From assembly GCF_000504205.1 (NCBI RefSeq), contig NZ_AZAJ01000001.1, forward strand, positions 2,454,879-2,518,878: a stretch of 64,000 bases of DNA, read 5' to 3'. Every line of letters starts with the position of its first letter. The first letter of the stretch is position 1. Of the stretch, positions 2,240-32,142 are shown one piece after another. The stretch is from Methanolobus tindarius DSM 2278. Its GTDB lineage: Archaea > Halobacteriota > Methanosarcinia > Methanosarcinales > Methanosarcinaceae. Under the pieces are notes generated by a model, which saw nothing but the letters and a program-made list of their open reading frames with translations, searched no databases and was not told the DNA's origin. The translations under genes and the position numbers were made by a program.

Positions 2240-2292
2240 TTTTTTGTATACTGAAACAATTTAGGTAATGCGAAATTGCTATATACAAAAAA
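2240..2292. promoter_or_regulatory. Nested inverted repeats upstream of feoA
   Basis: An 11-base perfect inverted repeat, TTTTTTGTATA (2240-2250) and TATACAAAAAA (2282-2292), encloses a second pair, CAATTT (2257-2262) and AAATTG (2273-2278). The inner loop reads AGGTAATGCG. The two pairs are almost concentric. It could be a double operator for the DtxR-type regulator or an RNA stem-loop in the feoA leader. It lies about 38 bases before the probable feoA start and shares a GTATA element with the repeat before the regulator gene. Confidence 0.6.
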
Positions 2293-2329
2293 CAGGTTAG
2301 AGCTACCATTAAAAAGGACAGGTAATGAC

Positions 2330-2572: not shown

Positions 2573-2658
2573 ACTGGCTATTTTCCAAACCTTTTAGATA
2601 TTTTGTGTCATTATTGTATATTGTAACATTATAGTATAACAGTTCCTGGGGATATTTC

Positions 2659-5155: not shown

Positions 5156-5424
5156 TTAAGGAAACGCTGAAGGTGCTGTTCATAGACAATTGCACTCTCC
5201 AGGAAGCTGCAGACAAATTAGGCGTTAAACAGAATGACATCAAGGACCGGCTTCTCATGCTGCAACATATGGGGTATGTACGGGAGATATGTAATAATTC
5301 CATTCCAAAGTCTTCTGCATGCTGTTCATGCACTGCGGCATCTTCCTGTTCTGATAATGATGATATTTCAGGCTCAAAGGCATATCAGTTGACTGATAAA
5401 GGCAAGCGGATCTGCCGTAACTAA
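5152..5424 (+). CDS. feoC: FeoC-like winged-helix protein with a cysteine cluster
   Basis: This 90-residue protein has an N-terminal helix-turn-helix (CTLQEAADKLGVKQNDIKDR, then LLMLQHMGYVREI). A cysteine-rich loop holds Cys57, Cys58, Cys60 and Cys66, and a wing ends in YQLTDKGKRICRN. FeoC proteins are small winged-helix proteins whose cysteines can bind an iron-sulfur cluster and which act on FeoB or on transcription. The CC-C-x5-C spacing is not the bacterial FeoC pattern, so the cluster is an inference. It overlaps the preceding membrane-protein gene by four bases and is the last gene of the feo cassette; a T-rich stretch follows at about 5447-5462. Confidence 0.72.
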   Translation: MIKETLKVLFIDNCTLQEAADKLGVKQNDIKDRLLMLQHMGYVREICNNSIPKSSACCSCTAASSCSDNDDISGSKAYQLTDKGKRICRN

Positions 5425-5622
5425 TAAAACAGCATCTATAGGTCATATTTTATTATTTTTTGTGTTTGTGGAAATGCAAAACCTGAATATTTCAATCATC
5501 ACTATTATTCATGTGGTTTTATTTTCATGTATGGATATTCTACGGTACTGTTAAATCTCAGCGGTTTTAAGATGTACTTCAATCAGTTTAAATAATGCCA
5601 AACAGACACAAAAAATACCGCA

Positions 5623-5636
5623 ACATATATTTTTAA
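5623..5636 (+). promoter_or_regulatory. TATA box of the corrinoid activase gene
   Basis: The sequence ACATATATTTTTAA is preceded by an A-rich ACCGC stretch that could serve as BRE. Expected transcription start is near 5650-5655, giving a leader of about 40 bases. AAGGGATT before ATG 5692 serves as ribosome-binding site. Confidence 0.5.
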
Positions 5637-5691
5637 GTTCGGACACAGATACTACGTTATTAAATTTAAAAAGGAATTAAAAGGGATTCAA

Positions 5692-7311
5692 ATGAAACTT
5701 GGAGTTGCAATAGACATAGGTACCAGTGGTATCAGAGCACAGAAAATAGATCTTGACACTGGTGATATCCAGAAGACAGTTATAACTCTCCGTAACCCGC
5801 TCCCTGGGGCAAACGTTATGGACCACCTGGACTTTGCCATCACTTATGGTCTTGATCTTGCTCAGGGTCTGCACGTCAATGCTGTAAAGCATGTTATAGA
5901 GACATTGGGAGTTAAACCGGAAGAACTTGAAAGAATGTCCATTTGTGGAAACCCTATACAGCTTTCAATTTTCCAGGGAATCCCAATCGATGACCTTGCA
6001 TATGCAGGAGAAAGGAAGAAGGAAAGACTGAACATTCAGGAATCAGACAGAAGTGCCAGGATCATTGATTGTTCAGAAATCAAGGGGCTGGATGTATATC
6101 CAAACGCACAGCTTGTTGTTCCACCTGCAATCAGGCATGAAGTTGGTGCCGATGCTCTTGCACTTATTATCAAATCAGGATTCCTTGATACAAAGGAAAC
6201 TGCAATTGCAACAGACTACGGAACAAATGCTGAAATGGCTCTTATCCATGAAGGTACCATCTATACAGGCTCCGCCGCAGCAGGTCCTGCTCTTGAAGGT
6301 CAGCAGATCAAATACGGTAACCTTGCATCTCCATTTGTAATTTCGGATGTTGAATTTGAAGGTAAAAACATGCGTAACTACGTACTTGACGACGAAATGA
6401 ATACTGTCAAGGCACAGTTGATCAACCCTAACAATGGGGATATCATTGAAGAGGATTCCATTAAGGCAAAGGGAATTACCGGAACAGGTGTTATTGCAAT
6501 AATTGAAGCAGGAATGAAGGATGGAATTATCACACTTCCAAAGATCAACACACCGGACCACATCCTCTATCTCCAGGACAAAATCAAGTTCTTTGAGAGC
6601 GATGTCGAAGCAGCGGGTCTTGCAATCGGTGCTATCCGTGCAGGTCACCTTGCACTCTGTAATGCAGCAGGTGTTGAGGTTTCTGATGTCAAGAAGGCAT
6701 ACATGTCCGGTGCTGCAGGTACTTACATGGACGCTGTCAAGGCACACCAGGTCGGTATGGTTCCATTTGATGTTGACGAAGTTATCCAGATAGGTAACAC
6801 TTCACTTATTGTTGCAAGGGAAATCCTTCTTTCAGAGGACAGGCTCTGGGAACTCCAGGACATTGCAGCAAAGATTGTCAGCAATCACGTAATGTTTGCA
6901 ACAGATCCGGCATTTAAGGAAGCATACATCCAGGAGATATCATACTGGACAGAAGGAATGCCATTCAAGATGCTTAAGAAATTCCTCAAGAAGAAGGGAC
7001 TTCCAAAGATTGACCTTCCTGAGAAAGAAACAACTGTCACCAAGGTTGTTGAGAAAGATATCCCAGTACTCGGTCCGGAAGGACTTCAGGTCATTGAACA
7101 GGTCGGTACATATCTTACAATGAAGGTCGACTGTCCAGAATGTCCAAAATGTATCAAAGTTTGTCCAAATGACGCGATCACCATTGATGATGAAGGCGTT
7201 GTCATGATCAGTTCAGATCTATGTGATGGTGCAAACTGTAAGAGATGCATTAATGCCTGCCCCAAGGAAACATTCAGGTGGGAGAATCTGGTTGTAATGG
7301 AGAATGCTTAA
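5692..7311 (+). CDS. RamA-like reductive activase of methyltransferase corrinoid proteins
   Basis: At 539 residues this matches RamA, the iron-sulfur ATPase that reduces the Co(II) corrinoid of methylotrophic methyltransferases back to Co(I). The N-terminus (GVAIDIGTSGIRAQKIDL) and a second phosphate-binding segment (ATDYGTNAEMALIHEG) show the ASKHA/DUF4445 ATPase fold. The last 70 residues carry two ferredoxin-type [4Fe-4S] motifs: CPECPKCIKVCP, and CDGANCKRCINACP. Family knowledge assigns RamA to methylamine systems and close paralogs (MapA-like) to methanol. Its location 2 kb from mtaCB suggests this copy activates MtaC. It is followed 39 bases later by a G3E GTPase gene on the same strand. 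Confidence 0.88.
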   Translation: MKLGVAIDIGTSGIRAQKIDLDTGDIQKTVITLRNPLPGANVMDHLDFAITYGLDLAQGLHVNAVKHVIETLGVKPEELERMSICGNPIQLSIFQGIPIDDLAYAGERKKERLNIQESDRSARIIDCSEIKGLDVYPNAQLVVPPAIRHEVGADALALIIKSGFLDTKETAIATDYGTNAEMALIHEGTIYTGSAAAGPALEGQQIKYGNLASPFVISDVEFEGKNMRNYVLDDEMNTVKAQLINPNNGDIIEEDSIKAKGITGTGVIAIIEAGMKDGIITLPKINTPDHILYLQDKIKFFESDVEAAGLAIGAIRAGHLALCNAAGVEVSDVKKAYMSGAAGTYMDAVKAHQVGMVPFDVDEVIQIGNTSLIVAREILLSEDRLWELQDIAAKIVSNHVMFATDPAFKEAYIQEISYWTEGMPFKMLKKFLKKKGLPKIDLPEKETTVTKVVEKDIPVLGPEGLQVIEQVGTYLTMKVDCPECPKCIKVCPNDAITIDDEGVVMISSDLCDGANCKRCINACPKETFRWENLVVMENA

Positions 7312-7350
7312 TTTGCTTTCTCTTCTTTCAATTTTTAGAAGGAATAATTT

Positions 7351-8484
7351 ATGAAAATACTCGTTGTTGGTGGATTTTTAGGTAGTGGAAAAACATCCAC
7401 CATTATTCGTTTAGGAAAAGAATTTAGTGAAGCCGGCCAGAAGGTTGCAGTTATTGTCAATGAAATTGGTGAAGTAGGTCTTGATGGTGATGTCATTTCC
7501 AAATATGGTCTTGATATGACTGAGCTTACAAGTGGTTGCATTTGCTGTTCTCTTAAAGTTAATATGAAAACAACTTTGACCATTCTTAACAGGGATTACC
7601 AGCCTGATGTCATATTAATAGAGCCAACAGGAATTGCATTCCCACAGATAATCAAGAATGAAATAGATCTGATGGACCTGAAGAATACCACAGTTCAACC
7701 TCTTGTAACACTGATTGATGGTAGCAGGTTTAAGCAACTGATGAAGGAAGCAAAGAATTTTGCAATGCGTCAGATAATTGATGCTGAAATCTTATGTATT
7801 AATAAGATCGATCTTGTTGACGATATACGTTTGCCTATTCTTGAAGCCTCTGTGCAGCAATTAAATCCAAAGGCAAAAGTGCTCCTCCTTTCATCCTCCC
7901 GGGAAGATGAACACTGGTTTGAATTTGTCGAACTTGCAATGGGCGATGCTCCCAGTCAGCATGGTCATCATGAGTTAAAGACCACAAGTGCGGATACTGA
8001 GGTCATTGATGAGGCAACAGGGAAGCCTGTAGAGCAGACAATGGATTCCATTGAGGCTTCAGGTATAGCCAGTTATGCTACTGAGTTTGTACTGGATGGT
8101 CGCATTGCCACAGATGTCGCACAGGCAACAGCCAGGGATATTATGACAGCTCTAAAATCTAAGGTTATAGAGCTCAGTCCTGAATTTGTGGGGCACATTA
8201 AGCTCTTCATTGAATCCGGTTCTAATACTGTAAAGACTAATCTTACGGCATATGATCAGGATATTACCATGGAAGTCATTGATACGGAGACCGGGCAAGT
8301 GCCAAGACTAAAGGTTCTCTCGGCAGTTTCAAGTATTGACCGTGACAAGCTTGTGAATATAGTAAATGATACTATTTCTGAAAAACTGGGCGACCAGAAT
8401 ATAGTTTTCAAGCACAACAAGCCTCATGATCATGATCATGATCATGGGCATATCAAACCAATAGATTTAGTCAATAACAATTGA
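7351..8484 (+). CDS. G3E-family (CobW/UreG-like) GTPase, putative metallochaperone
   Basis: The 377-residue protein starts with a Walker A (GGFLGSGKTS, residues 7-16). It has the CxCC metal-binding signature GCICCSL (Cys63, Cys65, Cys66), a Walker B-like EPTG, the guanine-specificity motif NKID, and a C-terminal CobW-type domain. The tail is histidine/aspartate-rich (HDHDHDHGH), typical of G3E proteins that hold Zn, Ni or Co. SD AGAAGGA precedes ATG 7351. Placed between the RamA-like activase and mtaCB, it may deliver metal (Zn for MtaB/MtaA, or Co) to the methanol enzymes, or act with the activase; this is inference. A terminator hairpin follows directly. Confidence 0.85.
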   Translation: MKILVVGGFLGSGKTSTIIRLGKEFSEAGQKVAVIVNEIGEVGLDGDVISKYGLDMTELTSGCICCSLKVNMKTTLTILNRDYQPDVILIEPTGIAFPQIIKNEIDLMDLKNTTVQPLVTLIDGSRFKQLMKEAKNFAMRQIIDAEILCINKIDLVDDIRLPILEASVQQLNPKAKVLLLSSSREDEHWFEFVELAMGDAPSQHGHHELKTTSADTEVIDEATGKPVEQTMDSIEASGIASYATEFVLDGRIATDVAQATARDIMTALKSKVIELSPEFVGHIKLFIESGSNTVKTNLTAYDQDITMEVIDTETGQVPRLKVLSAVSSIDRDKLVNIVNDTISEKLGDQNIVFKHNKPHDHDHDHGHIKPIDLVNNN

Positions 8485-8499
8485 TTATGAGTGATTATT

Positions 8500-8530
8500 G
8501 CAGCAATTATCTTTGCTGCTATCTTTTTTA
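8500..8530 (+). terminator. Hairpin plus T-tract after the G3E GTPase gene
   Basis: GCAGCAA (8500-8506) pairs with TTGCTGC (8513-8519) across a six-base loop. TATCTTTTTTA follows. This closes the activase-GTPase transcription unit. Confidence 0.6.
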
Positions 8531-9343
8531 GGAGTATATTCAGTTTTGTTGTTACCATTTCATTTTGAATCTGTGTTTTGTGTTCTTCATTTTCTTTGTT
8601 TCTTTCGTAGGACCTCTGTCCTAAAATATGTAATATATAAGTATAACGCATTACATGCACTTTTGTGAACTGTTCTAATATTTCTATATCGAGTCTTTGT
8701 ACACTTCGACTTTTGACGATACTTAAATCGAACGGTTAACAATTAGTAACAAAAATCTATATTGAATTAATTGTCTAAAATAATTATATATGCAACTAAA
8801 ATTTATTGGGCAAAAAGGCACACATATTAAATAAAATAGTTTTTTACTTTTTTATATTTAGATGATTAACAAATTCAATTTCGACAAGGAAACTTTAGTT
8901 ATGTCTGCAAAATTGGAAAAAATGTGCGGTCCTATTTAAAGTTAACTGTCACTCTCTTATTTACTTTTATATTAATGTAAATAAAATCATAAAAAACCCG
9001 GTTTACATTCTAAATATAATCAGGCACTTTGTGATGCATTAGTCATAAAAAATGAAATCTAGTGGTACTGTGTAAAATTATGCTTTGTTTTGATATTGTT
9101 TTATTATTATAAATGTACGAAACCGCTAGGTTTATATAGCTATCTAGAATACGTGGTTATGTGGAAAGATGAAGTTAACAAATGACTAAAACATATTAGC
9201 AAATGGTTGTGGAGACTTTTGCTGAATGTAAAAATGTCATATGTCAACAGATATCCATCTGCTGTTTACAAAAGCATAATTCGTTTGAATGTATGCCAGC
9301 GTTGCAGCAGGAAGTCAATCTAGATCTAAGGAGGTAGAATTAG
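8531..9343 (+). promoter_or_regulatory. Long AT-rich leader/promoter region of mtaCB
   Basis: More than 800 bases without a credible gene; I see no conserved small protein. A TATA box (TTTATATAGC, 9131-9140) overlaps the inverted repeat AAACC-GCTA-GGTTT (9120-9133), a plausible operator. The predicted transcription start near 9160 leaves an untranslated leader of about 185 bases. Within it, AACAG (9246-9250) and CTGTT (9262-9266) can form a small hairpin that also contains CAGAT-ATCC-ATCTG. The very strong SD AAGGAGGTA (9328-9336) lies seven bases before ATG 9344. Long mta leaders with post-transcriptional control are known from Methanosarcina. Confidence 0.6.
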
Positions 9344-10105
9344 ATGGATGTAGACCCAAGCAAAATATTAGTTAGGTACAATGTTGCTAAAGAAAAAGCA
9401 CAGACACCTGAAGAGATGGCAGCTGAGATGTATCCAAGCGCAGAGCCTGGAAAGACAATTTGTGCAGCAATCTTTGATGGAGAAGAAGACGACGTAATCG
9501 AAGGTCTTGAGAAGGCAATCGAGGGCGGAGCAGATCCAGTAGCACTCATCGACGACGTGCTTATGGTAGGAATGAAGATCGTCACAGACTTATACGACCA
9601 GGGTGTCATCTTCCTGCCAAACGTAATGATGTCAGCAGATGCAATGCTTGAAGGTATCGAATTCTGTAAGGAACAGGGTGGCGCAGCACCAAAACCAAAA
9701 GGAAAGGTTGTTTGCCACGTAGCAGAAGGTGACGTACACGACATCGGTAAGTCAATTGTAGCAGCACTCCTCAGAGCAGCTGGTTACGAAGTAGTTGACC
9801 TTGGCCGTGATGTACCAGTCGACGAAGTTATCGCAGCTGTAAAGAAGGAAAGCCCAATGATGCTTACCGGTACAGCATTGATGACCACAACCATGTACGC
9901 ATTCAAGGAAGTCAACGACAGACTCCTCGAGTCCGGTATCAAGATACCATTCCAGTGCGGTGGCGGAGCAGTAAACCAGGACTTCGTAACACAGTACGAG
10001 CTCGGAATCTATGGTGAAGAGGCAGCAGACGCACCAAAGATGGCAGACGCAATCCTTTCAGGAAAGGGTCTTGCACAGCTTAAGGAGCAGTTCCACAAAC
10101 ACTAA
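9344..10105 (+). CDS. mtaC: Methanol corrinoid protein MtaC
   Basis: The 253-residue protein has an N-terminal helical cap domain and a C-terminal Rossmann B12-binding domain starting near residue 120. The lower-ligand motif EGDVHDIGKS supplies the cobalt-coordinating histidine. TGTALMTTTMYAF and QCGGGAVNQDF form the rest of the corrinoid pocket. It carries the methyl group from methanol (MtaB) to MtaA in the cytoplasm. Codon use is strongly biased to C-ending codons, as expected for a very abundant protein. The SD is near-perfect. mtaB starts 15 bases downstream, so the pair is one operon. Confidence 0.96.
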   Translation: MDVDPSKILVRYNVAKEKAQTPEEMAAEMYPSAEPGKTICAAIFDGEEDDVIEGLEKAIEGGADPVALIDDVLMVGMKIVTDLYDQGVIFLPNVMMSADAMLEGIEFCKEQGGAAPKPKGKVVCHVAEGDVHDIGKSIVAALLRAAGYEVVDLGRDVPVDEVIAAVKKESPMMLTGTALMTTTMYAFKEVNDRLLESGIKIPFQCGGGAVNQDFVTQYELGIYGEEAADAPKMADAILSGKGLAQLKEQFHKH

Positions 10106-10120
10106 ACAGAGGTGACAGAA

Positions 10121-11506
10121 ATGGTAAAAAGATACACATCACTTGCATACAAAGCAGCTGACGACATGATCTTCGGTAAGTCAGTCTACCCAGTAAAAGC
10201 AGAGCTCGGATTAGAAGTAGGTGCTGGATACGTTACAGCAGAAGTTAACTATGCACCAAGACCAGAAGCTGGTGTCTCCAAGGAGAAACTTGTTTCTGAA
10301 TACCGCAGACTCACAACCGACATTATGGCAAGAGCAGTCCAGATCGGTTTCCCTGCAGTATCACTTGAGACAGAACACGTCGAGCAGATGACCAACAACC
10401 CAGACTGGGGAGGAGAAATCGCTCACGTCCAGAAGACAATCCTGGAAGAATACCACGAAGAATACGGAATCAAATGTGGTCTCAGACACACACCTGGTGA
10501 CATCCGTGAGAACCGTGACCTTCTTGCACTTATCGGCGCAAAGTATGACACCCTTATGGAGTCATTCGAAGCTGTAGCAGATGCAGGAGCAGACTTCCTG
10601 TCCATCGAAACAATGGGCGGTAAGGAAATTCTCGACTACGCAATCCTCAGGAACGATATTCCTGGTCTCGTATATGCAATTGGCTGCCTCGGTTCAATTG
10701 ACATGACCATGATCTGGGAAGACATCAGGAAGATCGCAGACAAGAAGGGAAGAATTGCAGCTGGTGACACAGACTGTTCACAGGCAAACACCGCTATGTT
10801 CATAGCAGGTGGTCTCCTTGACAAGAACCTTGCACACACCATTGCAATCATCGCAAGAGCAATTTCCGCACCAAGGACACTTGCAGGATATGAAGCAGGT
10901 GCTCAGGGTCCAGGAAAGGACTGTGGATACGAGAACACAATCGTAAAAGCAATCACCGGCTGCCCAATCGCTCAGGAAGGAAAGACCTCAACCTGTGCAC
11001 ACGCTGATGTAATGGGTAACCTTGTCATGCAGTGCTGTGACCTCTGGTCAAACGAGTCTGTAGAATACCACGGTGAATTCGGTGGTACCTCAGTACAGTG
11101 CTGGTCCGAGTCCCTTAACTACGATGCAGCAATGCTCAACGTAGCAACCGAGACCGGAAACGCAAAGATGCTCCGTGACATCCTCGTACTCTCTGACAAG
11201 TACAGAGACCCACAGGGATACGTCCTCGCATACGACAACGCATACAAGGTAGCTGAATCAATCGCAAAGGACGGAGACGACCTTTACCTCCGTGCAAAGA
11301 ACGCAGCAATCTCATGCTGTGACATCCTGAACGATGCTGACAGCAAGAAACTTGTCATGTCCAAGTTCGAGATCGGTGCACTCAACGATGCAAAGGCAGC
11401 ACTTGACGCAATGACTGACGAAGCTGACACCTTCATGAGTGACAGCCTCGAGAAGTACAAGGCAGAAGTCGCTGTATTCAGACCAGACGACAACTACAAG
11501 TTCTAA
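10121..11506 (+). CDS. mtaB: Methanol:corrinoid methyltransferase MtaB
   Basis: The 461-residue protein matches MtaB from its first residues (KRYTSLAYKAADDMIFGKS). It is the zinc enzyme that splits methanol and methylates MtaC. Candidate zinc ligands are Cys in GDTDCSQAN and Cys in GKTSTCAH, plus a glutamate in the SIETMGGKE region, consistent with the known MtaB Glu-Cys-Cys set. ATG 10121 is preferred over GTG 10112 because AGAGGTGA (10109-10115) is the ribosome-binding site. Codon bias is the same as in mtaC. A strong terminator follows at 11519. Confidence 0.96.
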   Translation: MVKRYTSLAYKAADDMIFGKSVYPVKAELGLEVGAGYVTAEVNYAPRPEAGVSKEKLVSEYRRLTTDIMARAVQIGFPAVSLETEHVEQMTNNPDWGGEIAHVQKTILEEYHEEYGIKCGLRHTPGDIRENRDLLALIGAKYDTLMESFEAVADAGADFLSIETMGGKEILDYAILRNDIPGLVYAIGCLGSIDMTMIWEDIRKIADKKGRIAAGDTDCSQANTAMFIAGGLLDKNLAHTIAIIARAISAPRTLAGYEAGAQGPGKDCGYENTIVKAITGCPIAQEGKTSTCAHADVMGNLVMQCCDLWSNESVEYHGEFGGTSVQCWSESLNYDAAMLNVATETGNAKMLRDILVLSDKYRDPQGYVLAYDNAYKVAESIAKDGDDLYLRAKNAAISCCDILNDADSKKLVMSKFEIGALNDAKAALDAMTDEADTFMSDSLEKYKAEVAVFRPDDNYKF

Positions 11507-11518
11507 GTCTAAAAGCGA

Positions 11519-11557
11519 AACAAGTTCTTAAGGAACTTGTTCCTTTTTTCTTTTTTT
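11519..11557 (+). terminator. Strong terminator of the mtaCB operon
   Basis: AACAAGTTC (11519-11527) pairs with GAACTTGTT (11533-11541) through a five-base loop. It is followed by TCCTTTTTTCTTTTTTT. Confidence 0.75.
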
Positions 11558-11686
11558 AGTTATTTGAGTTTCACTTACTGTTAAGTATATTTTATTTTTA
11601 GAATATAGAATTTTGAAACTACTTATAGTACGAATCCATTCTGGAATTAGTTTCTCAAATCCAATTTAATATAAAAAATAAATGGG

Positions 11687-13618
11687 TTATTTTATGAATC
11701 TCTTGGGATAACCTATGCCCGTTATCTGTATCACTGTTTCAACAGGATCATGTTTCCAGTCCTCTGGAGAAAATGTTTTTTTTGTCATGTTTATATCAAG
11801 GTTGTCTCTGCTGACTCCGCATTCTCCCATGTATTCAACAACCATATTCTTTCCATGCATTTCCGCATATTCCACAGCTTCACGATAATCTGAAAAACTA
11901 TTTCTTCCTTCAGGAGAGAATACATAATACCCTGCATCAAGATCGTTGATTGATACCGGTCTTACGATAAGTTCTATTCTTCGGATTCCTTTCCCAAACA
12001 GAGCTCCGGCAGCATTGCCAACCTGGGCATGTTCAGGGACAGCAATTTCCGCATCAATTATGCCTTCCATAATTTCTTTATACGCTACAACGGGACCACC
12101 AAGAAGAACAACCGGAATGTCCACTTTAAATCTGGCATTGAATTTTCCATCAACAATTTTCTTAATGCCATTTATCTCTATATCAGGCAAGATGTAAGTC
12201 ATCAGGTTGAAAGCCATGTTCTTTGCAACTATTTCCTTTACTTTTGTGCTGAATTCAACGTCAGTCATTTTATTCAGTTTTCCAAGTTTTTCAGCCCCAA
12301 TTACTGATGCTTTTGTATCCCATGAGTTGTACTCTCCTAAAACATGAAGTGCGTCCGATGGTGTAAATCCAATAGCCTGAATTAGCCTTTTCTGTATAAG
12401 TGAGTCCAGTATAACAGTAGAAGGATAGCGAGTTGAAATTGCAGCAATTTCATCCAGACTCATTGGTTCATTAGCAATAGCTTTGAGGACTTCAGCTTCA
12501 GAATCTTCAAGTCCTTTAGGTTCAAAACCGGATCTCATGAAAAACTTTGTAGGCTGGATATTTCTGTCAAGAGTACTTCTCTTAGGAATAAGATTTCTTT
12601 TAAGTTTATCCAGAAATCCCGGAAATTTAGATGATGCAAGGCAGAGAGGAATTACTCTTCGTGGTCCGATATGGATTACTTTGTTGCGTGTCCAGACATG
12701 ACTGTCGCCACCCATGGCAGATGTCTCCATCCTGGTTGCACGGACACGGGTTTTCCATCCTCCTACGACTGCACCCGTGTCTGAAAGTTCAGGAATACCG
12801 TCTTTAATGGCAGATACATCAGTACTGGTTCCACCAACATCTACAACTGCACATGTGTCAAATCCAGAAAGGAAGGAAGCTCCCACAAGACTTGCAGCGG
12901 GACCTGAGAATATCGTTTCAACTGGTTTTTCCAGCGCATCTTTTAAACCAACAACTGTTCCGTCACATTTCAACATTAATAGACGTGCATCTATTTCTCT
13001 TCTTTTTATTTCGTCTATTACAGAAAGGATAAATTTATGGGATATTGGAAGAAGTTGCGCATTAAGGGATGCTGTAACAGCACGTTCATATGCTCCAAGA
13101 TCCTGGGAGAGTTCATGACCGCAGACCACAGGCAGTCCTGTAATTTTGTGTAGAACATCGGTAATTTCAAGTTCATGTTCCGGATTTCTTATGCTGAAAA
13201 ATGAAGATACAGCAAAAGCTGAAACATCATCCTTATACTTTTCAGCAAACTCTTTTACTGCAGCGATATCTGGTTTTTGAATTTCTTCTCCATTGTAACT
13301 ATGCCCTCCGGAGATTGAAAGCACATGTTTTGCAGGAAAATCTCCTTTTACAGGATGTTCACCCACAAGAATAAGAGCAACAGGACTTCCGGTTCCTTCA
13401 AGTACTGTATTGGTAGCAAGAGTTGTTGAAACTGACACCAGATTTACTTTTTTTACATATTCAGAATCGAGGGTATCAATGGCATTTTTTATTCCTTCAA
13501 CAAGATCCGGGTATGTTGTAAGTGCTTTCCCTGAACCTACTACCGTTCCATCTGAATCTCTTACAAGAATCGCATCAGTATACGTGCCACCAGCATCAAT
13601 TCCTAGACTATAGTGCAT
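11687..13618 (-). CDS. HyuA-like (hydantoinase/oxoprolinase) ASKHA-fold protein, copy 1
   Basis: This 643-residue protein starts with HYSLGIDAGGTYTDAILV, the phosphate-1 loop of the hydantoinase A/oxoprolinase family. It continues with SVSTTLATNTVLEG, FSGPAASLVGASFL and VVDVGGTSTDVS. The remaining half is less typical, with a winged-helix-like stretch (LDSLIQKRLIQAIGF) and a conserved EHAQVGNAAGALFGKG segment. Classical enzymes work with a HyuB subunit that is absent here, so hydantoin cleavage should not be assumed. SD GGAGATATATT precedes the start. It lies downstream of mtaA on the same strand, separated by a terminator. It is a paralog of the protein at 19803-21737. A role around corrinoid methyltransferases is only inferred from position. 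Confidence 0.82.
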   Translation of the reverse strand: MHYSLGIDAGGTYTDAILVRDSDGTVVGSGKALTTYPDLVEGIKNAIDTLDSEYVKKVNLVSVSTTLATNTVLEGTGSPVALILVGEHPVKGDFPAKHVLSISGGHSYNGEEIQKPDIAAVKEFAEKYKDDVSAFAVSSFFSIRNPEHELEITDVLHKITGLPVVCGHELSQDLGAYERAVTASLNAQLLPISHKFILSVIDEIKRREIDARLLMLKCDGTVVGLKDALEKPVETIFSGPAASLVGASFLSGFDTCAVVDVGGTSTDVSAIKDGIPELSDTGAVVGGWKTRVRATRMETSAMGGDSHVWTRNKVIHIGPRRVIPLCLASSKFPGFLDKLKRNLIPKRSTLDRNIQPTKFFMRSGFEPKGLEDSEAEVLKAIANEPMSLDEIAAISTRYPSTVILDSLIQKRLIQAIGFTPSDALHVLGEYNSWDTKASVIGAEKLGKLNKMTDVEFSTKVKEIVAKNMAFNLMTYILPDIEINGIKKIVDGKFNARFKVDIPVVLLGGPVVAYKEIMEGIIDAEIAVPEHAQVGNAAGALFGKGIRRIELIVRPVSINDLDAGYYVFSPEGRNSFSDYREAVEYAEMHGKNMVVEYMGECGVSRDNLDINMTKKTFSPEDWKHDPVETVIQITGIGYPKRFIK

Positions 13619-13792
13619 AATATATCTCCTGTTTTACAATGCAAAAGAACCAAAGTTAAATTTGAAAAGACGTATGAAATGTGCAAATAACCTTTGATCA
13701 ATAAAAGATGTGCTCAGGTTATATTAAAGAGTTATGTTAACGCCGAAGACTAAAAACGAAAGCAATAAACGCAAAATCAGTTTAAATTATGC

Positions 13793-13833
13793 AAAAAAAG
13801 AATAGTGCATGACCATAGTGAACTATGGCATGC
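13793..13833 (-). terminator. Terminator of mtaA (minus strand)
   Basis: On the plus strand, GCATG-a-CCATAGT and ACTATGGCATGC (13807-13833) form a 12-bp stem with a two-base loop and one bulge. Reading in the mtaA direction, it is followed by CTATTCTTTTTTT (13793-13805). Confidence 0.75.
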
Positions 13834-13846
13834 TTTGTTAAAGAAT

Positions 13847-14857
13847 TTATGCGTAGTATTCGTCTCTTGCTTCGACCATTGCCTTAAGGTTTGCAACTGG
13901 TGTGTCAGGTGCAATTCCACAGCCTGGTGCGAGGACATCGATTCCGTTGTCAAGAGCGGTCTTTGCTGCTTCCTTGACAGCTGCTTCGTCGCCTGCAAGA
14001 AGTACGAAAGGACTGGATACGTTACCGCAGATAGTGACCTTGTCTCCTACCTTTGCCTTTGCGCCTGCAAGGTCCTTTACCTTCTCTTCGATACTGATGG
14101 ACTCGAAGTGGCAGTCTGCCATCATTTCGATGATTGGGGATACGTCACCACAAACGTGGAGAATCATTGGTCCCTTTACACCGTCAGCAAATTTCTGGAG
14201 AACTGGCTTGAGCATCTTGTCGAATGTGTCAGGAGCCATAAGGTCTGGGGATGCTACTGGGTCTGGTACACTGATTACGTCTACTCCTGCGTCGAAGAGT
14301 GCGTTTGCGTATGCAGTACATGCCTCACATGCGAAGTCGAGGATCTTTTCGAAGTCTTCTGGCTTTTTGATGGACCATTTCATGAACTTCTTTACACTTG
14401 CAAGGTCAGATGCGAGGGTAACTGGACCTTCCATACCTGCGATGATTGGTACGTCGTCTCCTACCTTCTCTCTGATGATCTTCATTGCTTCCATTACAGC
14501 AGGAATTCTGCCTATGCTAAGGAGATCCTCTGGCATAGCAAGGTCTTCAACACCCTTTGGGTATGGGTGACCTGTGACTGAAGGCTGTCTGTTCTTTGTA
14601 CCCATGTTAATTTCACAGCCCATTGCTTCTGCAAGTACTGTAAGACAGTATGGAGCTCTTACACCTTCAAGACCACATACTTCGTATGATGCGACTGCAA
14701 GGTCTGCCATCTTCTGTGCGTCGGTGTGTGCCTCTGGCCATGCTGCACCTGTCTGGTCCATGAGCTCAACAATAGCGGACTGTGTTACTGTGCACACAGG
14801 TACTTTGTCTACTTCTTCACCTTTTAATGCTTTGAGTAATCTTTCTTTCATGTTCAT
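13847..14857 (-). CDS. mtaA: Methylcobamide:CoM methyltransferase MtaA
   Basis: The 336-residue uroporphyrinogen-decarboxylase-fold protein is of MtaA/MtbA type. The zinc ligands are visible as His and Cys in ILHVCGDVSP and Cys in LAPGCGIAPDTP, which activate the thiol of coenzyme M. It transfers the methyl group from methyl-MtaC to CoM, producing methyl-CoM for methyl-CoM reductase. Start ATG 14857 has SD AGAAGGATTCATT. It is transcribed opposite to mtaCB, from its own promoter, and shares their C-ending codon bias. MtbA (methylamine-specific) is the alternative, but proximity to mtaCB favours MtaA. Confidence 0.92.
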   Translation of the reverse strand: MNMKERLLKALKGEEVDKVPVCTVTQSAIVELMDQTGAAWPEAHTDAQKMADLAVASYEVCGLEGVRAPYCLTVLAEAMGCEINMGTKNRQPSVTGHPYPKGVEDLAMPEDLLSIGRIPAVMEAMKIIREKVGDDVPIIAGMEGPVTLASDLASVKKFMKWSIKKPEDFEKILDFACEACTAYANALFDAGVDVISVPDPVASPDLMAPDTFDKMLKPVLQKFADGVKGPMILHVCGDVSPIIEMMADCHFESISIEEKVKDLAGAKAKVGDKVTICGNVSSPFVLLAGDEAAVKEAAKTALDNGIDVLAPGCGIAPDTPVANLKAMVEARDEYYA

Positions 14858-24559: not shown

Positions 24560-25987
24560 TCACTTATCAATAACTTCCCAGTGGCCGCCCTTATCCGGGC
24601 CCACCCGCTTAAGCATTTCTTCACCCTGAAGCTTCTGAATGTTACGCTCTATGGAACGTGGAGTAACTCCTATTATTTCGGAAAGCTCGGCAATTGTGAC
24701 ATGCTGATTCTTCTGAACTTCATGTAATATTTTCTCCGACGTTTTCTCCGACGTTTTCTCCGACGTTTTCTCCGACGTTTTCTCCGACACTTTTTCAGGA
24801 ATGACATCTTTTTCCAGTGGGAAAGTGATCTTATAATGATCTATATCGCTTGCAACCTCAGGTTCAATCTCATAATACGACTTCCAGCCGCTAAACATTT
24901 TGTCAAAGCCTGAGCCTGCGTTTTCGGAGAGTTTGATGACCCTGAATATTTTAGCGATAATAGGGTTTCTTGGCATCGTGAAATCTTCTTTTATGATGGA
25001 TTCGATATCTTTTGGAAGGCTGCCGGGATTTAAGAATTCTATTCTGTCGAGAAAAACTCTTATCCGTGGTTTCATTGGGCTGAAATAATCGCAGTGCATC
25101 AGCAGATTCACAAGAGCTTCACGAATAGCAACAAGCTGGGGCTGGTTGTCAGTGGCAAAGCCATCAGCTCTTAAAGTGAAAGGCAGGTCTATCTTTTTGA
25201 TAAGGCGTTCAAAAATGCTGAAATAGAACCGGAAAAGATTCTCTTCCTCAGAAAGCCTGTAATTATATCGGGTCGGTGCATCGGAATAAGACGTACCCAT
25301 GATCTCAAGATAATCAATTCTGAAATCTGTAAGCATGCGATTGATATTGTCTTCATTTCCAAAGACCAGTAAACCGCCGATAGTTACTTTTCCATCGACT
25401 ACGACCTGTAACTTCTCCAGCAATTGTTCCGTTGATAGTTTGTTATATCTGTGCTCAGGGTTTACATTCTCAAGATAAGTCTTGTAATCAGAGATCGTCC
25501 TCTCATCCAGGTCATCAATGGTAAACTCAGTAAGTTCCTTATCCTTCAAACCGAAGGAAGAATCTCTATACATAGCATCGATCTCAGCATCTGTTGCTCT
25601 CTGGTCTCCGCTGCCGGTTCGTATGAACGTATTTTTCCTCGAATTGAAATAGACTGGCTTCTGCCCGGAAGCAGGAACATAAAAAGCAAGCACGATTTTT
25701 CCATCAAAATCATACTTTATACTTCTTACCCTGATTTTCTGGTTGAACTTGTCCCCACGAAGAGTGGTGGTAAAATCCTGCTCGATCTTTTCGGCGTCTG
25801 TAACACCTGTAATCTCAAAAGTCTTCTTCGTTTGCTTTACTCCAAAAACAAGCCAACCACCATTAGTATTGGAAAATGCACTCACCGTTTCAAAACTGCT
25901 CTTAGGAATAGAGGACTTCGCCTCTTTTACTTCAAAATCTTCCCACTCAAGCTCTTCCAGCCGGTCGAACAGTTCTGTTTTATCCAT
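24560..25987 (-). CDS. AlbA_2 (Schlafen-like) / ATPase / winged-helix protein
   Basis: The protein is 475 residues from ATG 25987 (SD AGAGGAAAC). The N-terminal AlbA_2 domain contains EWEDFEVKEA and FSNTNGGWLVFGV. The middle holds a GHKL-like ATPase (REALVNLLMHCDYF, NAGSGFDKMF). The end is a winged helix (VTIAELSEIIGVTPRSIERN, LKRVGPDKGGHW). A low-complexity linker of SEKT repeats separates ATPase and DNA-binding parts. Family members are annotated as putative transcriptional regulators or RecG-like ATP-binding proteins; Schlafen-type AlbA_2 domains also occur in defence proteins. It lies tail-to-tail with the Msr-type gene and downstream of the TIR-like fusion gene on the same strand. Confidence 0.82.
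   Translation of the reverse strand: MDKTELFDRLEELEWEDFEVKEAKSSIPKSSFETVSAFSNTNGGWLVFGVKQTKKTFEITGVTDAEKIEQDFTTTLRGDKFNQKIRVRSIKYDFDGKIVLAFYVPASGQKPVYFNSRKNTFIRTGSGDQRATDAEIDAMYRDSSFGLKDKELTEFTIDDLDERTISDYKTYLENVNPEHRYNKLSTEQLLEKLQVVVDGKVTIGGLLVFGNEDNINRMLTDFRIDYLEIMGTSYSDAPTRYNYRLSEEENLFRFYFSIFERLIKKIDLPFTLRADGFATDNQPQLVAIREALVNLLMHCDYFSPMKPRIRVFLDRIEFLNPGSLPKDIESIIKEDFTMPRNPIIAKIFRVIKLSENAGSGFDKMFSGWKSYYEIEPEVASDIDHYKITFPLEKDVIPEKVSEKTSEKTSEKTSEKTSEKILHEVQKNQHVTIAELSEIIGVTPRSIERNIQKLQGEEMLKRVGPDKGGHWEVIDK
24730..24788. repeat. 12-bp tandem repeat encoding SEKT units
   Basis: Unit TTTTCTCCGACG is repeated four full times plus one 11-base partial copy, with no mismatch. On the minus strand it encodes SEKT four times and a final SEKI in the linker of the AlbA_2/HTH protein. 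A 12-base period keeps the frame, so copy-number change would only alter linker length. Confidence 0.95.
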
Positions 25988-26176
25988 GTTTGAGTTTCCT
26001 CTATTTCTCTTGTTGTAATTTCCTGGTTTCACTTTTTTGGTGTTCGCATTGCAGATACCCTAGTTAGCAAATTTTGTATATACAGTTGTAAAATGTTAAA
26101 ATAGAACTTCTTGAATTAGGGTTGTGAAGTTTATATTATTTTTTTAAAATTCTTCTTGGAATGAGCAATTTAGAGA

Positions 26177-27607
26177 TTAGGCATACTCTCTTATCACTTT
26201 GAATTCAAGATTATCTGAGTCAGCAACTTTTAATTTCATGCCTTCTGCAATTTCTTGTATTGAATTTTTTCTTAAAAGTATTGGGTCTTCATTCACCATA
26301 ATCATTGAACTATCGGCAATACGGTCAACTATCAAAACATCAAATTTGTCACCGATTTCAAGCTCAATGATGTTTTCGTAATCAATTAGCCAGATGCCTT
26401 CGACTACAACAAGGCTGTCTATCTGACCCTGAAACACATTAGTTACATTCACTCTAAAAACTTCAACGTTACTCTCATCTGCAATATTGACATTATGTAT
26501 CCATGTTCCATCTGTTTTCTCATCGACAAGGATTACTTTATCTTCAATGAATTCACCATCTTTTGAGAATTCCATCCAAACCTTGTTACCTACTACATCA
26601 ATCTGCTTTGCGGTAAGTTCATAGCCACCACCGAGTTCAAGTGTGGAACCAATTCTCAGGGTGTACTTGTCATCACTGTCAATAATTAGATTAGTCAACT
26701 TGTTTGGTGTATTATCCTTTAGTGATACATACACATCTCCAAATAATTCCATGACATTATAGGTGTCTTCCCATGCACCATATTTAAAATCAATCTGCTG
26801 GATTTGGGTTTCATATATAAGTCCATCTCTCTTAATATATCTATTATCGACAAAAGACCCACCATAAATCTTGAGTTTTTCCTGCGAAATGAACCCTGCA
26901 AAGTTAGTTGCGTTTATTTCAATAAACTTGCCATCATCTAAACCAATTATATTGTGAAGGTCTGCACCAGTGTATGTTATGTCGCCCTCGTAAACAGCAC
27001 CTACTGCCGGTTTATTGGTAGATCTCACCCTTTCCGCCAAAGAGTTATTTGTTTTATTTTTCTTGAGGAAAGACAATGTTTTTTGTTTTGAAACGCTTTT
27101 ATGAATTTCCTTAAAATTAGAAATATTGTTCTGATTTGCTAATTCAATGAACTGATTATCAGGAATATTTTTATTATTTTCAAACCATTCAAATTGTTTT
27201 TTTAACCTTTGAGATAATTTCTTCAACCCAGTACCTGTATTATCATATTCTATATATCTTGAATGTGCAATGTCAAAAGGAAGCGGAACATCACTTTTTT
27301 CTTTGATTAAAATAGTTCCTATTTTGCATGCGTGCCTAAGTCCTAATTCATAAAATACATTTGGATTTGGAAAAGTAATATCTGCAACTACATAATCAGA
27401 AGTCATTAATCTTTTTAGAATATCATTTGTAATAACTCCTGGTATATCAACATCGTCTGCACGTGTTACGTCCAAATCAGGTTTCGCTCTTAAAATAGCT
27501 TCCTTTATGAGGTCATCATATTTACTTCGAAGACTTTCAGCAGAAATCATTTCATCTCCGATTTTTTGATTTCCGATTGGCATTATCACAAAACAAGTTT
27601 TAACCAT
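26177..27607 (-). CDS. TIR/deoxyribosyltransferase-like domain fused to an S-layer (DUF1608) domain
   Basis: This is one uninterrupted 476-residue frame. Residues 1-140 show a Rossmann-like fold of the nucleoside 2-deoxyribosyltransferase/TIR-like type: CFVIMPIG (5-12), ADITFPNPNVFYELGLRHA with candidate catalytic Glu87, and PFDIAHSRYIEY. A lysine/asparagine-rich linker (145-195) follows. Residues about 196-476 match a complete Methanosarcina S-layer domain (PF07752/DUF1608): KYTLRIGSTLELGGGYELTA, KVWMEFSKDGEFIEDKV, NVFQGQIDSL, GIWLIDYENIIELEIGDKF. No signal peptide or membrane helix is visible, so the protein should be cytoplasmic, although S-layer domains are normally exported. TIR-like domains often cleave NAD or bind nucleotides in defence. 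Function here is unknown. Confidence 0.75.
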   Translation of the reverse strand: MVKTCFVIMPIGNQKIGDEMISAESLRSKYDDLIKEAILRAKPDLDVTRADDVDIPGVITNDILKRLMTSDYVVADITFPNPNVFYELGLRHACKIGTILIKEKSDVPLPFDIAHSRYIEYDNTGTGLKKLSQRLKKQFEWFENNKNIPDNQFIELANQNNISNFKEIHKSVSKQKTLSFLKKNKTNNSLAERVRSTNKPAVGAVYEGDITYTGADLHNIIGLDDGKFIEINATNFAGFISQEKLKIYGGSFVDNRYIKRDGLIYETQIQQIDFKYGAWEDTYNVMELFGDVYVSLKDNTPNKLTNLIIDSDDKYTLRIGSTLELGGGYELTAKQIDVVGNKVWMEFSKDGEFIEDKVILVDEKTDGTWIHNVNIADESNVEVFRVNVTNVFQGQIDSLVVVEGIWLIDYENIIELEIGDKFDVLIVDRIADSSMIMVNEDPILLRKNSIQEIAEGMKLKVADSDNLEFKVIREYA

Positions 27608-27762
27608 AATCTGAACACTACCCCTATATAATCTAAGAAAAGACCATAATCAATTAAAAATATTTCTAATTTTTTGAGGTTTGTACTTAACTTTATTCCT
27701 CTCATAATAACCTTAAAGAACAACTTCCTCGTTAACTCTGCTTATATTAAAGAGGCTTTCAA

Positions 27763-28716
27763 ATGGAACATTGTCATTCACATGGAGAAAAACTGAAAAA
27801 TCCTATCAGACAGGCGAAGATCACAGAGAATATGGGCGTTGATGAACTGGTACATGCAATCGATGGGTGTGCTTTTGGTGCAGGAAAACTTGCAGACGCC
27901 GTTGACATCTACACTGAGATGCTTGCAAACGGGTCAACCAGTTTCTTCGGGCTTGCCGGTGCCATGGTTCCGGCAGGAATGCGTCAGATAGTTACCGATC
28001 TAATATACGATGGCTACATCGATGTGCTGGTCACAACCGGTGCAAACATGGTTCACGAAATCGTGGAATCCATGGGGCTGCACCACTACAAAGGCTGCGC
28101 CGAATGTGACGACATCGAACTTAAACACGATGAGATAAACAGGATATACGATGTCTACCTTCCTGAACCTTATTTTGTAGACTTCGAGGAAAAACTCAAA
28201 GCCATACTCTCAGATGTTGGAACTGACACCATATCCATCAGGGAATTCATGACACACCTTGGAAATAACATAGAGGACAGGGACTCAATCTTAAAAGCAG
28301 CAGCAGACATGAACGTACCGGTCTACTGTCCTGCAATCCAGGACTCAATGATCGGACTTCAGGCATGGCTCTACAAACAGAGCAACCCGCTCAACGTTGA
28401 TGCCTTTGCAGACATGAAAGAGATAATCGATATCTGCTACGAGGCAAAAGACCCTGGAGCAGTTCTTATCGGCGGCGGAGTTCCAAAGAACTACATCTTC
28501 CAGTCTATGCTCATAACACACCAGGAATTCGAATACGCAATCCAGCTTACAATGGACACTCCAGAAACAGGAGGTCTTAGTGGTGCAACACTTGATGAAG
28601 CACGTTCATGGGGTAAGGTCAGCGAAACAGCACGCTCAGTAACAGTCCACTCTGATGCCACCATCACACTTCCGATAATGGTTGCAGCAGCAAGGAGCAG
28701 ACTTGCAAAAATGTAA
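27763..28716 (+). CDS. dys: Deoxyhypusine synthase (or DHS-like paralog)
   Basis: The 317-residue protein has the NAD-dependent DHS fold: [38 protein letters not shown]. The active-site lysine is in [12 protein letters not shown] near the C-terminus. DHS transfers the aminobutyl group of spermidine (or acts with agmatine in archaea) to a lysine of aIF5A. Methanosarcinales often carry a second DHS-like paralog of unclear substrate, and this could be either copy. A TATA-like CTTATATTAAAG lies about 20 bases upstream, and GAGG precedes ATG 27763. pyrF follows after 19 bases, probably co-transcribed. Confidence 0.88.
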
Positions 28717-29515: not shown

Positions 29516-31108
29516 TCATATGGACTGTGGTTTGTCCATCAGTTCCATATTGGTTTTAAGTATCTGTGAGAATACTTCGTTCTTTTTAACATCACACCTT
29601 GCTTCCTCAAGGTTTCTTTTAAGTTCCGCAACAGATGATTCAAGACTCTGTATGTAGATTGTCTGCTGTTCCAGCTTATTGTTGAGCTTCTTAATGTCAA
29701 GGTTCTGACGATGAATAGTAACATGATTTCCGATCTCACTGTTTGTTTTCTCGATCATTTCATCAAGTTCTTTTCTTTTATCTTCCATCTCAGCAAGCAT
29801 TTTTTCCATCTCAGCTTCAAACTTTGAATTCTCCTCACGCTTCTGGTCAATATTCTCGCTTTCAGCTTTAATCTCAGCTTTCTTAGCTTCAAGAGCATTC
29901 ATATCTTCCTGGAAAGCACGCTCCTTCTCTTCATGAGCCCTGACATTTTCTTCATGCTTTAACCTGAGTTCTTCACGCTCGGCATCAATCGCAGCCTTTC
30001 TCTCCTCAAAGGTCGCCTCAAAGGCTCTGATGTTCTCCTCATGCTCCAGCTTAATCCTTTCACGTTCGGCTTTAAATTCTGCTTTCTTTTCATCAAAAGC
30101 CTTTATCTTTTCTTCAAAAGAAAGCTCCTTTTCCTGATGCTCTTTAAGCCTTTCTTCATAGCCAGCAACAGTACTCTCAAGTTCTTTTGCCTTGTTTCCA
30201 ATGTCAGAAATATCAGTCTGGATGTGCTCTCTCATCTTCTCAATGGAAGAGCGTTTTTCATTCAGAAGTGATTCATCATCTTCTAACTGTGTTTTTATTG
30301 TCTGGAAATCTGCTTTTTTCCTGTTAAACTCTTTCAGCTCTGAATAATATCCAGCCTTAATAACTTCAAGTGCTGCCTGTGATGTTGCTTTAGTGAACTC
30401 AATGGATAGCTCTTCTCCCTTTAAAAGCTGCTCTTCAAGTATCCTGCATTGTTCATCCAGCTCGGATCTCTTTGCTTTGTACTGTTCAAATTCAGTTTCA
30501 TAAGCTAATCTCAGGGAATCAAGTTCATCCTTTTTAGCTTTATATTCAGCAAAATCCTTCTCATGTTTCTGTCTGGATACTTCAAACTCTTTGACACGGA
30601 CTTCAAGTTCCTCACGCTTCTTTTCAAATTCAGCAATCTCTTTTTCAAGATCATCTTTCTGGTCTTGTGAAATAGCCTTATTTGCTCTTTCACTGGCAGA
30701 TTTTATGATAGAACACTTTTTGCGGAGTTGTTTTTCCTGTTCGCTAAATTCATTTTTAAGCTTATCAAGTTCTTTCTGCTTGCTTTCATACTCGCTAATT
30801 TCAGACTCATAGCGTTCTCTGATTTTAACGAGTTCAGCTTCTTTCTCAATAAGTCCCTCTATATTGGAATTGAAACCCTCCGGAATATTAACTACCTGGG
30901 TTGATGCCTGAGTAGAAATATTAGAATTACTGGAAAAAGTGTCATCATTTTTATCGGATGCAGGTACATAGTTCTGAGGACCTGATGAAGCATTATTTAC
31001 GTCTTCATGTTCCTCTTTCATAACGGGCTTGCGGTAGATATTAGGGGTGAATACCTTGGATGAATTATCATTTTCCTTGTTCCTACCTGTTAAGTTCAAT
31101 GGATTCAT
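29516..31108 (-). CDS. Long coiled-coil protein, partner of the actin-like ATPase
   Basis: The 530-residue protein has a disordered Ser/Asn-rich N-terminal tail of about 95 residues and then almost continuous coiled coil to about residue 525. Repeated segments rich in EEKIKAFDEKKAE and LKHEENVRAHEEKE indicate internal duplication. No membrane helix, Walker motif or SMC hinge is visible. Its start overlaps the stop of the upstream actin-like gene by four bases (ATGA), so the two are translationally coupled. A filament-binding or scaffold role is inferred. Coiled-coil prediction cannot by itself assign homology. Confidence 0.8.
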   Translation of the reverse strand: MNPLNLTGRNKENDNSSKVFTPNIYRKPVMKEEHEDVNNASSGPQNYVPASDKNDDTFSSNSNISTQASTQVVNIPEGFNSNIEGLIEKEAELVKIRERYESEISEYESKQKELDKLKNEFSEQEKQLRKKCSIIKSASERANKAISQDQKDDLEKEIAEFEKKREELEVRVKEFEVSRQKHEKDFAEYKAKKDELDSLRLAYETEFEQYKAKRSELDEQCRILEEQLLKGEELSIEFTKATSQAALEVIKAGYYSELKEFNRKKADFQTIKTQLEDDESLLNEKRSSIEKMREHIQTDISDIGNKAKELESTVAGYEERLKEHQEKELSFEEKIKAFDEKKAEFKAERERIKLEHEENIRAFEATFEERKAAIDAEREELRLKHEENVRAHEEKERAFQEDMNALEAKKAEIKAESENIDQKREENSKFEAEMEKMLAEMEDKRKELDEMIEKTNSEIGNHVTIHRQNLDIKKLNNKLEQQTIYIQSLESSVAELKRNLEEARCDVKKNEVFSQILKTNMELMDKPQSI

Positions 31109-32142
31109 ACTATCATTTCCTTATTTTTGTTTTCAGCATTCAGCTGAGTCCAGAATTCCGGTGGCATATTCTTTGCAATTTCAAGTGCACCTTCTGAGAT
31201 CCCGTATACAGGATCGATATCACAAATGACTTTACCACCGCCAAGCACCTTCAGTTCGTTCTCGATAAAAATATCAAGCCCCTCAAGGTCGCTGGTCCCC
31301 CCTAAAATATGGATGTTGTTCCTTAGTTTTTCACGCAATTCCGGTTCAATATCAGATATCAGTTTGATAATTCCCGATACAATATCCGTTACAACGAATT
31401 CACATGCCAGTTGCAACTCTTCAATAATAGATTCCTGAACATTGCCACTTTCAAGAGGTACGTCAACGACACATGTGTCCGGAGCTGAAACCAGCCGGCC
31501 GTATTTCTCTTTCCATTCACTGGCAAGTTCCTCGGTTACTTTTGAATCTTCCCACCTTTCGCTAATGAGCTTAACAATTTCAGAATCAATATCTTTCCCG
31601 GCACATGAAAGTCTCAGGCAATCATTTTCCCTGGGAACTTCACTGTCAATTATGGATATATCTGTTTTACTGTACCCAATATCCACTATAATGGATTTGT
31701 CAGGAAGATTATTCTTGTAGGATGCACAAAAGAGTTCATCGACAAGCATAGCACCTGAAAATACCTCATTTGCAAGCTCAAGGAATTTACGTTTGTATTC
31801 TCTGCTTGCATTAGAAGGAGTTCCAAGTATCGCATACTTATCTCTGCTTGCGTCAACATCGTGCTTTTCAAGAATGGATTTCAGGAACTTTCTGCAAGCG
31901 TCTATGTCTTCCTCTGTCCGGAGTTCACCTTTGAAAAGCTCTATTATATTCCCATCTTCCAGTTCAAGTGCATCCTTGCCGGATACTACTTTTTGTTCCT
32001 GGTTGTTGCTGCCCTCAGTGGAAACAACAACTGCACTGCGTTCTGTGAATTTTTTACCTTCACTGGTACACACAGATGTTTTGAACATTCCTGCATCTAT
32101 TCCAATATACAGGCTATTGTCACTGGTTGTCTGATCTTCCAT
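31105..32142 (-). CDS. Actin/MreB-like ATPase
   Basis: The 345-residue protein shows the actin-superfamily signature in order. Phosphate-1 is YIGIDAGMFKTSVC, connect/phosphate-2 is IIVDIGYSKTDISI (preceded by GAMLVDELFCASYKN, like the MreB/MamK LVDEP segment), and the adenosine motif is IHILGGTSDLEGL. Length fits MreB, MamK, ParM or Ta0583 rather than Hsp70. No N-terminal amphipathic helix was obvious. A TATA-like TATATAAATAC lies about 100 bases upstream in its direction. It is coupled to a long coiled-coil gene, suggesting a cytoskeletal or positioning system. Polymerisation is not provable from sequence. Confidence 0.78.
   Translation of the reverse strand: MEDQTTSDNSLYIGIDAGMFKTSVCTSEGKKFTERSAVVVSTEGSNNQEQKVVSGKDALELEDGNIIELFKGELRTEEDIDACRKFLKSILEKHDVDASRDKYAILGTPSNASREYKRKFLELANEVFSGAMLVDELFCASYKNNLPDKSIIVDIGYSKTDISIIDSEVPRENDCLRLSCAGKDIDSEIVKLISERWEDSKVTEELASEWKEKYGRLVSAPDTCVVDVPLESGNVQESIIEELQLACEFVVTDIVSGIIKLISDIEPELREKLRNNIHILGGTSDLEGLDIFIENELKVLGGGKVICDIDPVYGISEGALEIAKNMPPEFWTQLNAENKNKEMIV

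Follow-up and report, generated by a model that had tools for sequence, protein, structure and literature searches.

Introduction

The S-layer is the coat of the archaeal cell and a known virus receptor in archaea, as the Haloferax virus HFTV1 uses the S-layer protein as its receptor (PMC9973310). S-layer domains of the PF07752 type form dimers and lattices (PMC12175726), and the major S-layer proteins contain two domains in tandem (PMC3361143). Antiviral STAND proteins combine N-terminal effectors with C-terminal sensors (PMC10907252), and the active casposon MetMaz-C1 is characterized by a 14-nt target duplication and the terminal repeat GGGATATAGGTAAC (PMC10359463).

We analyzed a stretch of 64,000 nucleotides from Methanolobus tindarius DSM 2278, hereafter the window, and describe a gene in which an S-layer domain follows an N-terminal domain resembling nucleoside 2'-deoxyribosyltransferases (NDT) and TIR effectors. 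Sister genes carry a KAP NTPase in the same place, and the S-layer domain may act inside the cell as the recognition part of modular defence proteins.

Results

Architecture of the fusion protein

The gene is one open frame of 476 codons with an ATG start, and its product comprises an NDT/TIR-like domain, a linker and a complete S-layer domain. The main features, in window coordinates, are:

26177–27607, minus strand: NDT/TIR–S-layer fusion gene, an open frame, with the same fusion in M. vulcani (499 aa)
27158–27607, minus strand: NDT/TIR-like domain, residues 1–150 (PADLOC TIR effector, Rcl/DNPH1 profile match, AF2 and Foldseek)
27347–27349, minus strand: codon of Glu87 within NPNVFYELGLRHA, the expected catalytic glutamate (invariant in 16 and 29 relatives; Rcl alignment)
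26993–27157, minus strand: linker, residues 151–205, with the recombination breakpoint at its start and a 23-residue insertion in M. vulcani
27026–27043, minus strand: SLAERV, beginning of the stretch common to the KAP–S-layer proteins, which have SLAEKV (junction comparison of five fusions)
26180–26992, minus strand: S-layer domain, residues 206–476, with the PF07752 match at 233–463 (profile matches; five-member fused clade)
27158–27757, minus strand: recently exchanged tract of upstream region and NDT/TIR coding part, 98.9% identical to M. vulcani (windowed identity, dS)
24560–26032, minus strand: downstream AlbA_2/HATPase_c_4/winged-helix gene (Pfam), a neighbor without demonstrated partnership
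27763–28716, plus strand: conserved gene that we take to be dhs, marking the site, with an upstream interval that varies among Methanolobus (locus comparison)

A sequence-only reading of the window had proposed a single fusion frame and a search for the same architecture in relatives. Both are borne out by M. vulcani PL 12/M, in which the fusion also occupies one frame (499 aa, 81% identity) at the same position beside dhs, ruling out a frameshift or an assembly chimera at the linker.

Residues 1–150 match no Pfam model on their own, and residues 58–138 match the PADLOC TIR effector model PDLC00733 (E 2e-8). Relatives of this domain match Nuc_deoxyrib_tr and CAP12/PCTIR TIR, and the family profile retrieves Rcl/DNPH1 structures (E 1e-5) and, weakly, CAP12. 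An AF2 model of the N-terminal part (pLDDT 89.9, pTM 0.87) returned nucleoside 2'-deoxyribosyltransferases first in Foldseek, followed by DNPH1 and the SPARTA TIR-APAZ subunit. In the full-length AF2 model the S-layer half is poor (mean pLDDT 59.9), because six S-layer rows are partly misaligned onto the N-terminus, and only the separate N-terminal model was used. Glu87 is invariant in two alignments of relatives (n=16 and n=29) and aligns with the glutamate of GYELG in Rcl, so that the domain combines the Rossmann-like fold and the conserved catalytic glutamate that define the NDT/TIR superfamily. Taken together, the PADLOC, family-profile, member and Foldseek matches justify the label NDT/TIR-like. 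The proposed Rossmann-type, TIR/deoxyribosyltransferase-like N-terminus with Glu87 is thereby supported, with a predicted fold that appears somewhat nearer to NDT/DNPH1 than to classical TIR domains.

The nearest relatives of the NDT/TIR-like domain are short lone genes in viral contigs, with the exception of one at a Methanosarcina contig end. The viral-contig genes (~230 aa; L105–L115, about 2001–2700) share 50–60% identity with it and end in a different C-terminal region of ~80 residues instead of an S-layer domain. Among the phage and plasmid matches listed, only the N-terminal part was represented, the exception being S-layer genes carried by a single methanogen plasmid, and no virus-encoded S-layer protein was found in the viral contigs, either as a source or as a ligand.

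The C-terminal part matches PF07752 at residues 233–463 (profile positions 14–259 of 259; 185.6 bits, cut-off 30), TIGR01567 (176.6 bits, cut-off 121.9) and the solved S-layer protein MA0829 (3u2g; E 5e-49). These matches extend over the whole domain and exceed the curated family cut-offs, confirming that the S-layer domain is complete. The absence of a signal peptide and of a membrane helix was likewise confirmed: the maximum 19-residue Kyte–Doolittle mean is 1.15, as compared with 2.66 for the signal peptide and 1.87 for the C-terminal anchor of an exported S-layer protein of the same genome. Neither end is hydrophobic, whereas a coat protein has a signal peptide for export and usually a C-terminal anchor. 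Judged by these features, the protein is a member of the S-layer domain family, yet we do not class it as an S-layer (coat) protein, and its location is predicted to be cytoplasmic. The fused S-layer domains are 44–54% identical to exported ones and retain the core motifs, the domain in the window being ~49% identical to one coat protein of the same genome. S-layer domains are also numerous in Methanoperedenaceae genomes.

KAP NTPases precede the same S-layer module

The genome of the window contains a second S-layer fusion, a 728-aa protein with a KAP NTPase at its N-terminus and 67% identity over residues 136–475. Two further Methanolobus genomes encode KAP–S-layer fusions, of 727 aa in G060 and of 899 aa in G064, the latter with pentapeptide repeats between the two parts. 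One type of S-layer module thus stands behind an NDT/TIR-like domain in two genes and behind a KAP NTPase in three, and the stretch common to both fusion types starts at SLAE[RK]V, ~17 residues ahead of the S-layer domain. The KAP parts match PF07693 (131.9 and 134.2 bits, cut-off 20), with weak NACHT-like similarity besides, and contain the Walker A and B motifs GxWGSGKTTLM and VIFIDDLDR; this combination, which defines the KAP defence family, occurs in the sister genes only. The best PADLOC matches of the two KAP parts scanned are PDC-S20, PifA and QatA.

KAP relatives elsewhere in the class mostly end in pentapeptide or HEAT-like repeats, not in an S-layer domain. Since the relatives of both effectors end in other domains, the S-layer module fills, in both lineages, the C-terminal place that other domains hold elsewhere. 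In G044 (L188, 835–3524), a related KAP–pentapeptide gene without an S-layer part is split into two frames.

S-layer fusions of this type were found as five genes in 4 of 27 Methanolobus genomes. Across 112 Methanosarcinaceae genomes, no other match came near the identity of the fusions or covered the shared linker likewise; among those examined, the best matches in other Methanosarcinaceae were of the exported type or ended at the edge of the locus. The literature searched held no paper joining an S-layer domain to a KAP NTPase or a TIR domain in this sense, and we found no earlier description, among these papers, of an S-layer domain kept constant behind exchangeable defence-type effectors.

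Single origin of the module and exchange of N-termini

A tree of 57 S-layer domains places the five fused ones together in a single clade (100/97) lying among exported proteins, which indicates a single origin. The nearest neighbors of this clade are S-layer proteins of another genus of the family, and the tree does not support the fused module being a recent copy of a resident S-layer protein. Within the clade, the M. vulcani NDT/TIR fusion joins the KAP fusions (98/83) and not the fusion of the window, so that the N-terminal types are discordant with the branching of the S-layer domains.

Comparison of the window gene with its M. vulcani counterpart locates this exchange. The NDT/TIR parts are 99.3% identical (dS 0.045), whereas the S-layer parts are 78.6% identical (dS 0.46), about as diverged as the adjacent dhs gene (dS 0.51). 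By windowed identity, the TIR-like half and the promoter are 98.9% identical between the two species, against a 15% difference in the S-layer halves. The tract of near identity extends from about 27757, in the intergenic region, to about 27158, ending at the linker. The simplest reading of this contrast is that a segment comprising the promoter and the NDT/TIR coding part was recently transferred onto resident S-layer modules.

Between the two species, the S-layer part has a dN/dS of ~0.24, close to the 0.15–0.23 of exported major S-layer proteins, which argues that it is kept functional under purifying selection; this average gives no sign of diversifying selection.

Genomic settings of the fusions

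The KAP fusion of the window's genome is a mobile cargo gene inside a ~13.2 kb casposon:

L055 about 915–14105, equal to G000 C1 about 3015414–3028604: casposon with solo cas1, PolB, terminal inverted repeats and a 14-nt duplication

The left terminal inverted repeat starts with GGGATATAGGTAACATCC. Both ends are flanked by the 14-nt repeat CGCATATTTTTATG, the left copy lying at the 3' end of a tRNA-Leu gene. A type I restriction (R-M) locus follows the casposon. The KAP–S-layer gene is immediately followed by 151 nt that repeat the 3' terminus of the element's polB gene in inverted orientation (87%; L055 12028–12178 versus 3568–3718), probably a scar of cargo acquisition. In G064 (L057 12747–18912), small unknown genes and a Zot-like ATPase adjoin the KAP–pentapeptide–S-layer gene, which suggests that a mobile element, virus-like or of another kind, has integrated there.

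At the site upstream of dhs where the window has its fusion gene, G060 has its KAP fusion, likewise followed by an AlbA_2 gene. In some Methanolobus there is almost nothing between dhs and a conserved membrane-protein/phosphoesterase/helicase block, and in others this interval is filled in different ways, including with genes without an evident link to defence; this mixture marks the site as variable and not as an island of defence genes alone. A pair of genes for a 530-aa coiled-coil protein and a 345-aa protein, actin-like by sequence only (window 29516–32142, minus strand), is also found beside dhs in M. vulcani and G060.

The suggestion that the neighboring AlbA_2/ATPase gene is an accessory did not hold as a requirement: it adjoins only the copies at the dhs locus, is cut short in M. 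vulcani PL 12/M, where the fusion is intact, and is absent beside the casposon copy. An obligate partnership is thereby ruled out. The AlbA_2 protein of the window (24560–26032, minus strand) has a run of SEKT repeats ahead of its winged helix, and this repeat differs in the M. vulcani remnant. Between the fusion and the truncated AlbA_2 gene, M. vulcani PL 12/M carries a CBASS cyclase (373 bits) and a Cap15 2TM effector (L021 9823–11309, minus strand). This CBASS system has Cap15 as its own effector and lies on the strand opposite to the fusion; no cyclase gene adjoins the gene in the window, which consequently lacks the cyclase–effector operon that defines CBASS.

Discussion

The reading that we favor, and to which we give about an even chance, is that the fusions are modular, probably abortive-infection defence proteins, in which a cytoplasmic S-layer domain serves for recognition and the effector, NDT/TIR or KAP, can be swapped. 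The S-layer domain would have been captured once from an exported S-layer-type protein and retained as the constant C-terminal recognition module, while the N-terminal module would be the exchangeable effector, a KAP P-loop NTPase in the sister genes. At rest the enzyme would be inactive. An intracellular ligand would then bind the S-layer domain, candidates being an S-layer-targeting viral protein, newly made for receptor binding or egress, or a mislocalized envelope protein; binding would gather the effector domains, and the NDT/TIR-fold enzyme, for which we expect Glu87-dependent cleavage of the glycosidic bond in NAD+ or a nucleotide, would deplete the nucleotide pool.

A coat domain inside the cell, joined to two interchangeable defence-type enzymes, is probably the recognition or switch part, and effector N-termini changing on a constant, selected C-terminus are what one expects if the constant part recognizes and the variable part acts. 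Given that an archaeal virus uses an S-layer protein as its receptor, a plausible ligand would be a viral protein that binds S-layers and is made in the cytoplasm. The sequence-only reading had proposed that the S-layer fold is reused in a defence-type cytoplasmic protein, and the shared KAP fusions, the exchange of N-termini and the CBASS and casposon settings support this proposal. The favored reading is further supported by the common junction of both effector types on one module, the single fused clade with discordant N-termini, the KAP fusion at the dhs site of G060, the PifA, QatA, PDC-S20 and TIR effector matches, the viral-contig relatives of the NDT/TIR domain, the type I R-M locus near the casposon, the different C-termini in relatives of both effectors, and the intact S-layer part with its dN/dS of ~0.24. 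Against it we count the lack of average diversifying selection, a module that is no recent copy of the resident coat protein, the failure to find a virus-encoded relative, and a dhs site that also receives genes unrelated to defence.

Integrated decoys are known from plant NLRs, and the S-layer domain may tentatively be seen as one, although we put this well below an even chance. It would mimic the virus receptor inside the cell: the receptor-binding proteins of S-layer-binding viruses would be synthesized in the cytoplasm ahead of virus release, and there they would bind the decoy and fire the effector. The sequence-only reading had offered both a sensor and a self-assembly module. The main rival to a sensor is a self-assembly scaffold, in which the S-layer domain self-associates into dimers or small lattices in the cytoplasm and concentrates the NDT/TIR or KAP domains, another signal providing activation. 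TIR and KAP-type NTPases work as oligomers, and a scaffold accounts for a single module serving two effectors. Self-assembly as a role of the module fits equally well, and domains of this type do make dimers and lattices (PMC12175726), but major S-layer proteins use two tandem domains (PMC3361143) where the fusions have only one, and a bare oligomerizer would leave a 476-residue single-gene protein without a sensor; as a full explanation we consider the scaffold unlikely.

Three further explanations dispense with viruses or with a function for the S-layer part. The domain could co-assemble with unexported host S-layer precursors or with the S-layer protein of another strain, the effector regulating or killing the cell upon export failure or arrival of a foreign protein. 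Its homology to host coat proteins (one, from the same genome, is ~49% identical) and the use of similar effector–sensor proteins in fungal incompatibility (discussed in PMC10907252) agree with such envelope or kin surveillance, which should however be conserved with the coat, and the fusions are rare and mobile (4 of 27 Methanolobus genomes, one casposon copy), making it quite unlikely. Structurally, the N-terminal part is best matched by NDT and DNPH1, which are metabolic enzymes, as expected of a housekeeping nucleotide-salvage or regulatory protein for which the S-layer part is merely a tether; such a protein would hardly be sporadic and mobile, trade places with a KAP NTPase at one site and lie close to CBASS and R-M, and we regard this as improbable. 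Recombination within these genes is clear, and it could by accident have linked effector genes in transit with an S-layer gene undergoing decay, leaving the S-layer part inert. All five genes have this part intact, it is subject to purifying selection (dN/dS ~0.24), and it was kept while the N-termini changed, which makes an accident highly improbable.

The fusions share the full domain and core motifs with exported Methanosarcinaceae S-layer proteins (PF07752/DUF1608, MA0829 type), but lack a signal peptide and a C-terminal anchor and have one domain, joined to an enzyme-type domain. With NDT/TIR-like effectors (NDT, DNPH1, CBASS Cap12-type TIR, SPARTA TIR and the NDT-like retron) the domain in the window shares the fold, the conserved glutamate and the PADLOC match, whereas it is fused to an S-layer domain, has no adjoining cyclase, Argonaute or reverse transcriptase partner and matches no Pfam model. 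The KAP domain of the sister fusions has its best PADLOC matches in the defence NTPases PifA, QatA and PDC-S20, while the gene in the window itself has no NTPase and KAP relatives in the class have pentapeptide or HEAT-like C-termini. The casposon agrees with MetMaz-C1 in its 14-nt target duplication and terminal repeat (PMC10359463), and is a casposon carrying an S-layer fusion gene as cargo.

Antiviral STAND proteins (Avs) place an effector N-terminally and a recognition part C-terminally (PMC10907252). The fusions, with their putative recognition module, resemble them in this, and resemble in the same way those plant NLRs that contain integrated decoys. The protein in the window differs in lacking the central STAND NTPase (the Pfam scan shows no NTPase in it) and in having a cell-surface protein domain as its C-terminal part. 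A coat domain inside the cell, behind swapped defence-type ends, suggests that a surface protein was recruited by archaea as an internal sensor, which would offer a testable route by which an archaeal cell detects infection through the virus's own need to recognize the coat. If the decoy interpretation were true, these proteins would be an archaeal counterpart of the integrated decoys of plant NLRs, made from a cell-coat protein.
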